Positions 8,562 through 57,759 of a stretch of 64,000 nt of DNA are shown in pieces; position 1 is the stretch's first letter; every line of letters starts with the position of its first letter. The stretch is from Hufsiella arboris. GTDB lineage: Bacteria > Bacteroidota > Bacteroidia > Sphingobacteriales > Sphingobacteriaceae. The position numbers and the translations under genes were made by a program. The stretch covers positions 1-64,000 of the forward strand of contig NZ_WVHT01000003.1 in NCBI RefSeq assembly GCF_009834875.1, read 5' to 3'. Below the pieces are notes generated by a model. It searched no databases, was not told the DNA's origin, and saw nothing but the letters and a program-made list of their open reading frames with translations.

Positions 8562-8855
8562 GGTAATGTTTTTTGCTTGTTATCTTAAAACAAGGATTTT
8601 TGGACGGTATTGTTTTGAAATTTAGGAATTCTAGGGGTTGTAGTCTGGTGTTTAAAGATTGTTATTTTGATGTTTTGTAAATAATAAGAACATCGTCTAG
8701 AATATTTGGCAATAGGAAGAAGCTAGCTTGAAACGGTTTTTTTCTAATGTATTCCGAGTTTTATATAAGATTCCTGATTTAGCATTTGCACTCGTCTGGA
8801 AGCAGGAAAACTTTTACTTCTGCTCCGGCAAATACGTTTTAATGATTTACATGTT

Positions 8856-9256
8856 GAAAGCAAGTTCCTGCGTTAATCGGAGCCGGTAGTCCCGCTAACG
8901 TTACAAGCTTAAAGTGATTGTCACAGGTTGCCGAATGTTCGTGCATCTTTAAGGCTTTTCACTCATATCGGGTTTAAAACCGTTGAGATATTGCAGCTAT
9001 CCACCTAATAGCACGAACCCTCGTACCGACGAAACACAGGTTTGAGTGCAATAAACCTGATCGGAGAGGAAAGCTTTTTGGTGCAACTCGTTCAATTTAG
9101 AAAGAAACATTCACAAAAAACTTGGATCGTAGAGCAGGACTGTCCTTGCCAACAGAGATGAACGTTCGTTTCAAAAGCTATCTAAAAATTAGGGCGAAAT
9201 AAAAAAATCGTTTCGAAAGTTTTAGTGAAATCGTTGGTGAGACACCAACAATGGTT
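8856..9256. repeat. ~400 bp repeat, copy A
   Basis: First of two tandem copies. It begins GAAAGCAAGTTCCTGCGTTA and ends in CACCAACAATGGTTA. Inside, 8947-9080 is bounded by an imperfect inverted repeat: TTTTCACTCATATCGGGTTT on the left and the complement-like AAACCTGATCGGAGAGGAAA on the right. Copy B repeats nearly every line of this sequence with scattered substitutions; a diverged relative is found at 57250-57575. The nature (inactive mobile element, structured RNA or intergenic spacer family) is not known. Confidence 0.85.
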
Positions 9257-9303
9257 AGGGTTAGCTATAAAAGTCTTAATAAAACAGATTGTAATTTTTT
9301 TTG

Positions 9304-9702
9304 GAAAGCAAGTTCCTGCGTTATTCGGTGCCGGTAGTCCCGCTAACGTTGCAAGCTTAAAGTGATTGTCACAGGTTGCCGAATGTTCCTGCAACTTTAA
9401 GCTTTTCACTCATATCGGGTTTAAAACCGTTAAGATATTGCAGCTATCCACCTAATAGCACGGACCCTCATACCGACGAAACGCAGGTTTAAGTGTAATA
9501 AACCTGATCGGAGAGGAAAGCTTTTTTGTTGGAGCTCGTTCAATTTAGAAAGAAACATTCACAAAAAACTTGGATTGCAGAGCAGGACTGTCTTTGCCAA
9601 AAGAGATGAACATTCGTTTCAAAAGCTATCTAAAAATTCAGGGCGAAATAAAGTCGTTCTGAAAGTTTTAGTAAATCGTTGGTGAGATACCAACAATGGG
9701 TT
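9304..9702. repeat. ~400 bp repeat, copy B
   Basis: Second tandem copy, starting 448 bases after copy A and matching it along its whole length. The inner inverted-repeat module spans 9394-9528, the same size as in copy A. The left arm is followed by the conserved phrase ATATTGCAGCTATCCACC. Near the 3' end a small palindrome TTGGTGAGATACCAA is seen (TTGGTGAGACACCAA in copy A). A fragment with only the left arm follows at about 9733-9796. Confidence 0.85.
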
Positions 9703-9732
9703 AAAGTGAACGGCATTAATTTATGAGTAATC

Positions 9733-9796
9733 ATGCAACTTTAAGCTTTTCACTCATATCGGGTTTATTACCGGGAGGAATTTGCTACTATTAACA
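9733..9796. repeat. Fragment of the same repeat (left arm only)
   Basis: GCAACTTTAAGCTTTTCACT and the following CATATCGGGTTTATT match the left inverted arm of copies A and B. After the arm this fragment (TTACCGGGAGGAATTTGCTA) looks as much like the distant copy at 57.3 kb, with its TTTATTACACTGAAGGCATT, as like its neighbours. It is therefore likely a separate truncated member rather than a simple duplication of copy B. Confidence 0.65.
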
Positions 9797-41311: not shown

Positions 41312-41443
41312 ATGCCGAAGCAATCAATTTTAAACCTGGTTGAAGCGACACCCTGGAACGAAGCCGGGAAATGTGGGATGAGTGAGGAGTACGCGGAAAA
41401 CGGGGCCGCCACAACCGATGAAAATCAGTTTTTGCTTTTCTAA
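41312..41443 (+). CDS. Possible 43-residue ORF between the LeuA paralogue and leuB
   Basis: A frame from the ATG at 41312 to the TAA at 41441 encodes 43 residues (beginning MPKQSILNLVEATPWNEAGK), too short for usual ORF cut-offs. No family is recognised, it is not rich in Leu, Val or Ile, and no terminator/antiterminator pair follows, so it does not look like a classical attenuator leader. It might be a small protein or a relic. The rest of the 261-base gap is AT-rich. Confidence 0.25.
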   Translation: MPKQSILNLVEATPWNEAGKCGMSEEYAENGAATTDENQFLLF

Positions 41444-57009: not shown

Positions 57010-57759
57010 ATGAATGAGTTACAAATGCCGATGGTTAACGAGGGTTTGCGTAGTAGATGCGGAAAGCGAATTAAATCCATAAACAATTCTGAAAAGCCTT
57101 TCTTTTATCCGATAAAGGCTTTCTACACTCTTATACTTGCTGCTGATCTTTTTACCATACCGTCGACATCCCTAACCGCCACCGGTTATATAATGGTATG
57201 AATAACGTCAACCAGGGGGAATAGAATTTATATAGCATAAATAAATTTTGAAAGCAGGTCCTTCATCGATCGGTTCCGCTAGCCCCGCCAATGCTCCAAG
57301 CTTAAAGTCAATGGTTGTAATATTTGAGAGTAAATACAACTTTAAGCTTTCCGCGAATGTCAGGTTTATTACACTGAAGGCATTGCTGCTATTTTTCAAT
57401 CGACCTGGCTTATGACCGATGAAATGCAGCCCGATGTACAATAAACCTGATGGCAGTGAAAAGCTTTTTTGATGCAGAAACTTAAGACTTGCATTATCAT
57501 TCTCAAAAAACTTGAAATGTACAGCAGGGCTTCAATTGCAAAGGATTTCTGCCGTTCGTTTTCAGCTAAAAATTTAACCGCCACCGTGGTTGTGTCTTCA
57601 CTGACTACTTTCATACTTTTTATTTTCCCCACGCTGATACGAGTTTGCAGCTCGTACCATACTTTCATCACGCTCACAACTTTCCTATCATCCACTCCGG
57701 TATTGCTAGATTTTTATAATTTCAAAACTTAAGCTGACTAAGCTTTAAATAAAATTTGA
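57010..57759. other. 750-base gene-free region with a distant copy of the 400 bp repeat
   Basis: No credible gene. It contains a hairpin (AAAGCCTTT near 57095 with AAAGGCTTT near 57115, without T tract) and the diverged repeat copy at 57250-57575. Minus-strand frames across the repeat are open over 70-100 codons but show no known domain and change frame relative to the copies at 8.9-9.7 kb. Confidence 0.6.
57250..57575. repeat. Diverged distant copy (C) of the 400 bp repeat
   Basis: It begins GAAAGCAGGTCCTTCATCGA, matching the start of copies A and B, and keeps CAAGCTTAAAGT. The inner module runs from about 57337 to 57470, the same ~133 bp as in the others, bounded by TTTAAGCTTTCCGCGAATGT and AAACCTGATGGCAGTGAAAA, which are inverted copies of each other. 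It ends near TTCAGCTAAAAATTT, like the end of the shared part of A and B. Confidence 0.75.

Follow-up and report, generated by a model that had tools for sequence, protein, structure and literature searches.

Inverted Flavo-1 hairpins in the window

The window, by which we mean the whole 64-kb stretch of DNA that was analyzed, contains two tandem copies of an element of about 400 bp (8856–9256 and 9304–9702), as had been described in the initial annotation. The copies are 92.5% identical across 401 nt, have a period of 447–448 nt, and are flanked by one gene encoding a MobA-like NTP transferase domain and another encoding a lumazine-binding domain (Pfam), the latter of which we take to be the gene for riboflavin synthase. 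The fragment annotated behind them (9733–9796, plus strand) comprises only the inner half of a left hairpin, with the recurring piece at about 9735–9770; it forms no complete unit. The diverged distant copy was also recovered; blastn aligns it at 57246–57531 with 67% identity, and its neighbors are a gene with a penicillin amidase domain and one with a flavin reductase domain (Pfam).

The right-hand hairpins of all three full copies match the Flavo-1 RNA family of Rfam (RF01705) above its cut-off of 42 bits and have the same loop layout as the model. These hairpins lie on the plus strand at 9049–9145 in copy 1 (50.8 bits), 9496–9593 in copy 2 (50.3 bits), and 57439–57535 in copy 3 (49.0 bits), with E-values of 5e-8 to 1.6e-7. 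At a relaxed threshold, applied to a stretch that covers copies 1 and 2, Rfam also matches the left parts of these two copies on the opposite strand, both below the cut-off (8884–8979, 36.5 bits, E 1.7e-5, and 9332–9426, 32.3 bits). A model built from 51 units of the same genome, three of them left hairpins, and referred to as R1, detects both hairpins in all three full copies. The left hairpin of copy 1, which was among the training sequences of R1, scores 57.5 bits; the two left hairpins that were absent from training are those of copy 2 (55.6 bits, with a 93% twin, in copy 1, inside the training set) and copy 3 (57277–57371, minus strand, 41.5 bits, E 1e-11). No R1 match was obtained in the fragment at 9733–9796.

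The inverted matches (by R1 in all three copies, by Rfam in the two tandem ones) define a common layout: an outer 3′ arm, a minus-strand hairpin, a spacer of 67–69 nt, a plus-strand hairpin, and a second outer 3′ arm. The full element is thus a head-to-head pair of hairpins of approximately 330 nt, located, in plus orientation, at 8850–9178 (copy 1, including outer 3′ arms and end motifs), 9298–9626 (copy 2, the tandem duplicate of copy 1), and 57246–57566 (copy 3, the diverged pair; alignment A3). In copy 1, the spacer (8980–9048) is 69 nt long and contains both 5′ arms. This layout accounts for the module of about 133 bp that the initial annotation had found to be constant in the three full copies: it is the stretch between the two hairpin apices, comprising the spacer and, on either side of it, the inner half of a Flavo-1 hairpin (by Rfam in copies 1 and 2, and by R1 in all three). 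A single weak unit lies apart from these copies at 41328–41411 (plus strand, R1 34.5 bits, E 3e-9), between LeuA-like and isocitrate/isopropylmalate dehydrogenase-like genes (Pfam).

Among named genomes, the riboflavin synthase was best matched by Sphingobacteriales, Mucilaginibacter, and Pedobacter records. Among 80 named riboflavin synthase loci, one contained a Flavo-1 unit, which indicates that the site in the window is not generally shared. The locus in question is from Pedobacter polaris (L313, 3635–3709), and there the unit directly follows the riboflavin synthase gene, as in the window.

Copy number, arrangement, and genomic context

A search of the whole genome, as the initial annotation had proposed, revealed many further copies. 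Blastn gave 26 matches (the query and copy 3 included), RF01705 gave at least 55 matches, of which at least 35 were above the cut-off, and R1 gave at least 133 unit matches (69 on the minus and 64 on the plus strand) when the best 150 of 2438 candidates were scored and matches down to 24.3 bits were included. No RF01705 matches were obtained in 14 control genomes. Given the Rfam E-values in the window and the 26 blastn and at least 55 Flavo-1 matches in the same genome, chance is excluded as the source of the Flavo-1 matches.

Complete matches are 64–108 nt long, and single units are common. Among the at least 133 matches, there are 40 neighbor pairs less than 400 bp apart, of which 28 are head-to-head, 11 are tail-to-tail, and one is in the same direction. 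The head-to-head gaps span 35–118 nt, with 13 of the 28 at 66–70 nt and seven at 57–62 nt; the 11 tail-to-tail gaps span 82–349. Some pairs combine two subtypes or two quite different subfamilies. A related genome (G013) has at least 111 units, mostly single, with six neighbor pairs (four head-to-head and two in the same direction). R1 counts in eight genomes ranged from at least 25 to at least 133 diverged matches each. In a survey of the phylum, for which the best 15 candidates per genome were scored, Flavo-1 was found in at least 44 of the 296 sampled genomes, at least 36 of them above the cut-off.

The outer ends of the pairs carry a TTGCTTTTCAAA-like motif in inverted orientation. In 23 head-to-head pairs, 37 of 46 ends score at least 9 out of 12 for this motif, compared with 9 of 135 control windows further out. 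These 23 pairs are those in the fetched loci and form a different set from the 28 counted across the genome.

Gene context was assessed, using a crude ORF caller, for 41 of 44 hits in genomes of family f16 and genus g35, which we infer to be Flavobacterium-like, and for 29 units of the window's own genome that were hand-picked from 88 R1 hits. No ORF of 80 amino acids or longer is overlapped by 35 of the 41 Flavobacterium-like and 24 of the 29 own units; of the 11 remaining units, nine overlap ORFs of 80–132 amino acids and two overlap the edge of longer ones. There was no preferred orientation relative to genes in either set: the Flavobacterium-like units comprise 13 in the same and nine in the opposite direction, eight between divergent and five between convergent genes, and six overlapping ORFs, and the corresponding numbers for the own units are six, six, seven, five, and five. 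A TPP riboswitch match below threshold (L035, 690–871; 39.3 bits vs a cut-off of 54.3) was seen near one Flavo-1 cluster.

Fold and covariation of the hairpins

The core stem consists of 4 + 2 + 2 + 3 + 2 bp, interrupted by a one-by-one mismatch, two three-by-three loops, and a C-A mismatch. In the alignment of 51 own units, the one-by-one mismatch is A-G in 49 rows, and the C-A mismatch is present in 37. The first position of the three-by-three loops is G-A in 46 and 50 of the 51 rows, respectively, and the last position is A-G in 39 of 51 (first loop) and 24 of 51 (second loop). On the other strand, the G-A mismatches would read C-T, which suggests that one particular strand is the folded one.

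Across the 51 own units, 95.0% of the stem cells are paired, 164 cells are changed on both sides compared with 52.4 in shuffles, and the covariation score is 0.618, as opposed to 0.066–0.130 for slid pairings. For the 44 Flavobacterium-like hits, taken from stretches of two genomes, 98.4% of the cells are paired and the score is 0.468 vs 0.021–0.089 for slid pairings, in an alignment fitted to the model. (Alignments A2 and A4 were fitted to R1, and A2 includes two weak hits, one of which overlaps another on the opposite strand.) These data strongly support the conclusion that the fold of each hairpin is kept by compensatory changes, nearly all of which are Watson–Crick. The earlier idea that selection acts on the fold of an RNA or DNA is therefore supported.

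The pairing partners turned out to be other than those proposed. Within hairpins, 549 of the 593 stem cells of the 23 head-to-head pairs (92.6%) are Watson–Crick, whereas pairing across the two hairpins matches in 360 of 593 cells (60.7%), close to the 59.5% seen between random units. The arms that bound the 133-bp module are thus not mutually complementary beyond background; the expected compensatory changes exist inside each hairpin and do not link one bounding arm to the other, and each hairpin is, by this criterion, the unit of selection. DNA folding of the whole pair was modestly better than for shuffles (z −2.1 and −1.3). Matching between the outer arm of one unit and the inner arm of its partner was also considered. 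Of five such pairings, examined in 22 of the 23 pairs, only one came out as suggestive (p 0.048), and the idea was dropped.

Wobble pairs in covarying stems

In a folded RNA, G-U pairs are expected to be tolerated in stems that vary. We counted G-T and A-C cells in the Flavo-1 stems and found no excess of the former: 9 G-T vs 6 A-C with 613 Watson–Crick cells in the 51 own units, 16 vs 14 with 994 in a set of 83 own units that overlaps the 51, and 4 vs 6 with 548 in the 44 Flavobacterium-like hits. The sole RNA control consisted of tRNAs of the same genome (29 distinct sequences from 30 of 43 tRNA matches), which contain G-U in 43 of 606 cells and A-C in none. Fisher tests against the tRNAs gave p values of 5.8e-7 and 5.6e-9 for the two smaller Flavo-1 sets and 2.4e-8 for the set of 83. 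Since the tRNA structure program may exclude A-C cells by design, the G-U fraction is the safer comparison; this fraction amounts to 7.1% in the tRNAs vs 0.7–1.6% in the Flavo-1 stems. The wobble test favors DNA over RNA. Taken with the copy number and the indifference to gene orientation, the base-pair changes look like those of a scattered palindromic DNA repeat, not of an RNA gene.

Inheritance, exchange, and search for traces of insertion

Two Flavobacterium-like genomes, G112 and G316, were compared using the best 19 of 37 hits in each. Fourteen of the 19 G112 units have a counterpart in the same position within the G316 set of 19; of the others, one is absent from G316, one is the far side of an assembly break at a shared site, and three are unsettled. 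At the lone absent site (L217 vs L262), the flanks have diverged at the join, and the site is not a clean one. A larger gene-bearing segment in G112 at another site (L230 of G316) was considered and proved to be an ordinary gene difference.

The orthologue is the closest copy at 10 of the 14 compared sites, which means that homogenization is not general. At two shared sites, the cores are 97.5–98.7% identical to paralogues in the same genome vs 88.6–89.9% to the orthologues; the cores at these sites are homogenized within each genome, that is, they show concerted evolution. The paralogue is also closer at two further sites, where tips or cores have been exchanged. In the window's own genome, one pair at C53 and another at C12 share 96.4% identity across their inner 251 nt, but neither outer arm is alike. 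The copies look mosaic, as BIMEs are.

Two side observations concern the hairpins themselves. The apical part differs between orthologous sites (L209 vs L236; L230; L240); it may represent a separate palindrome resembling GTCATTGCG...CGAAGCAATGAC or CGACTGCGCTCG, as though the hairpin tip served other repeats as a landing site. Furthermore, four draft contigs of G112 (L203, L204, L205, and L216) end inside near-identical Flavo-1 copies, from which it appears that the repeats probably break assemblies.

Target-site duplications, which the initial annotation had suggested as a trace of mobility, did not appear in the 23 pairs: the mean longest repeat was 2.00 vs 1.99 in permuted data (p 0.49), with ends that were placed by the motif and are approximate. 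Using 20 of the 23 pairs, the p value was 0.64. With a view to replication-strand bias, GC skew was calculated for two genomes, using 20 stretches per genome, but replichores could not be derived from it.

Search for a partner protein

The window's own genome has three Y1 transposase genes (L059 at C53:28966, L060 at C45:135310, and L061 at C2:60067), which, from a reading of their motifs, we take to resemble subclass 2.6. No Flavo-1 lies within 1.5 kb of any of the three. L060 and L061 are surrounded by short hairpin repeats of their own, such as TCGTTACAAACGA and GCGGATTACAAATCCGC, which differ from gene to gene and have TTACAAA/TTGCAAA-type loops, unlike Flavo-1; the repeats around L059 are less clear. 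In two other genomes, the Y1 genes (L349 and L360, two of the three checked) are likewise surrounded by other repeats of their own. The repeats around these Y1 genes are candidate cognate repeats of Bacteroidota TnpA_REP.

We extended the search to 28 Flavo-1-rich genomes, defined as those with at least six survey matches and excluding the window's own genome. These contain 86 Y1 matches, with six of the 28 genomes having none, and the neighborhoods of 51 of the 86 were examined. Two of 30 loci that are mostly IS200-like by score and length have Flavo-1 within 1.5 kb, neither of them bracketed. The other 21 matches were weaker and mostly RAYT-like; the 20 stretches surrounding them gave no Flavo-1 match above 18.7 bits. 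For the three own Y1 genes and the 51 Y1 matches examined elsewhere, a link to a RAYT was rejected.

Intervals between units were considered as possible sites of an autonomous element. The gap of about 880 bp between L089 and L090 holds a gene that, judging from the translations, is presumably tonB-like and part of an exbB-exbD-tonB-like cluster; the gene is present in both genomes, and the candidate was rejected. Among the own-genome matches listed, 13 neighbor pairs are 400–5000 bp apart, three of them head-to-head; one head-to-head interval was opened, and the ORF in it, which we take to encode an ordinary short-chain dehydrogenase, was rejected as well. The proposal of a non-autonomous mobile element is borne out in part: the copies are scattered and have an outer end motif in common, but target-site duplications, a clean empty site, and an autonomous partner were not found, and most of the units compared between the two Flavobacterium-like genomes stay in place.

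Nature and spread of the repeats

We consider it likely that each copy in the window represents two units, joined head to head, of a dispersed palindromic, REP/BIME-like DNA repeat that Rfam files as the sRNA “Flavo-1,” and that these repeats spread by means of a hairpin-reading protein. The unit would act as a DNA hairpin whenever its strand is single-stranded or extruded, and a putative protein, recognizing both the hairpin and its purine mismatches on one of the strands, would have spread the copies. TnpA_REP has been proposed to spread REPs in such a way. The copies would by now be mostly inherited in place, and recombination would exchange their cores, giving a BIME-like mosaic. The Y1 transposases detected in these genomes probably do not include the spreading protein, and a lost or different enzyme may lie behind the spread. 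A more specific proposal, which we regard as rather doubtful, is that Flavo-1 is the single-stranded DNA substrate of a hairpin-reading enzyme that is not of the Y1 type, and that the Flavo-1 units constitute a third REP-like superfamily, with G-A mismatches stacked in two internal loops. If this enzyme also converted copies into one another in place, this would explain how sites can be shared while their cores are genome-specific.

Flavo-1 is listed in Rfam as a small RNA of unknown function, and in the excerpts of the publications considered here it is tabulated as RNA (PMC2864571), counted among the most abundant sRNA families (PMC9029176), and seen to coincide with several 5′ transcribed regions of Flavobacterium psychrophilum (PMC9723704). 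If Flavo-1 were indeed a structured RNA, whether an sRNA or an element acting in cis in mRNAs, with the pairs as duplicated RNA genes, this would fit the strong covariation and the conserved G-A mismatches, which are strand-specific, as in many RNAs. We nevertheless consider this reading improbable, as the stems lack the G-U excess of tRNAs, the units have no fixed orientation to genes, and each of eight genomes holds dozens of diverged matches. The excerpt of the F. psychrophilum transcriptome gives no consistent strand either: the hits seemed to lie in sense or antisense to transcribed regions without distinction, and many fell outside such regions (PMC9723704).

Two kinds of transposon-derived element were weighed against the palindromic repeat. 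The inverted TTGCTTTTCAAA-like motif at the outer ends and the dispersal of the copies could be those of a MITE, a non-autonomous DNA transposon that depends on a DDE transposase and is marked by terminal inverted repeats and a target-site duplication. This explanation is very improbable: it is weakened by the absent target-site duplication, by the abundance of single units, and by selection on internal hairpins, which a MITE would not lead one to expect, and among some bracketed intervals looked at, no gene was recognized as an autonomous element. The head-to-head geometry is also that of a REPIN, in which the doublet forms one long hairpin that is moved by a RAYT, a Y1 transposase still in the genome, and the own genome does have three Y1 genes of subclass 2.6-like appearance. 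We find this the hardest explanation to believe. Complementarity across the two hairpins is at background, so that one long hairpin is unsupported; the own Y1 genes have no Flavo-1 nearby, and at least two of them stand among different repeats; and the neighborhoods of Y1 genes examined elsewhere, RAYT-like ones included, are nearly devoid of Flavo-1, with two of the three such RAYT-like loci checked standing among other repeats and six Flavo-1-rich genomes having no Y1 match at all.

Were the palindromic-repeat interpretation to hold, an abundant Bacteroidota sRNA family would become a palindromic DNA repeat, annotation counts would change, and experimenters would be pointed toward a DNA-binding or hairpin-cutting protein. 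Counting G-T against A-C cells in covarying stems would provide a simple test for other computationally found “RNA” motifs, and Flavobacterium and Sphingobacteriaceae would be places to study the concerted evolution of short repeats.

Comparison with known repeat families

The core of the elements is that of Flavo-1 RNA (RF01705), with the three right-hand hairpins at 49.0–50.8 bits and the same loop layout. The elements differ from the 76-nt model in being head-to-head pairs with arms and end motifs beyond it, in the left hairpins of copies 1 and 2, which are below the cut-off, and in behaving as a DNA repeat. By title and beginning of abstract, no publication linking Flavo-1 to REPs was found; subscription papers are mostly outside this scope, and the link may have been recognized elsewhere.

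The behavior of the elements resembles that of REPs and BIMEs of the GTAG and CGTC families. According to excerpts of PMC3733652, these are dispersed, mostly intergenic palindromes with many copies that prefer head-to-head dimers with conserved spacers similar to those found here, rarely occur in the same direction, and form hetero- and hybrid dimers and mosaic copies. Genes of tnpA_REP subclass 2.6, also from Bacteroidetes, are flanked by repeats that share with Flavo-1 atypical secondary structures and copies elsewhere in the genome, as described in part of PMC6006769; the repeats at L060 and L061 are short hairpins that differ from Flavo-1. In contrast to REP units of 20–40 bp, complete Flavo-1 matches are 64–108 nt long. 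They carry no tag of the REP superfamilies (GTAG in 5 of 51 and 1 of 44 rows, CGTC in 1 of 51 and 0 of 44), show almost invariant G-A mismatches in both of their three-by-three loops, and have no linked transposase among the loci examined. Because size, tag, and transposase all depart from those of the REP superfamilies, we file the copies in the window as Flavo-1 elements, a variant of palindromic DNA repeat outside those families.
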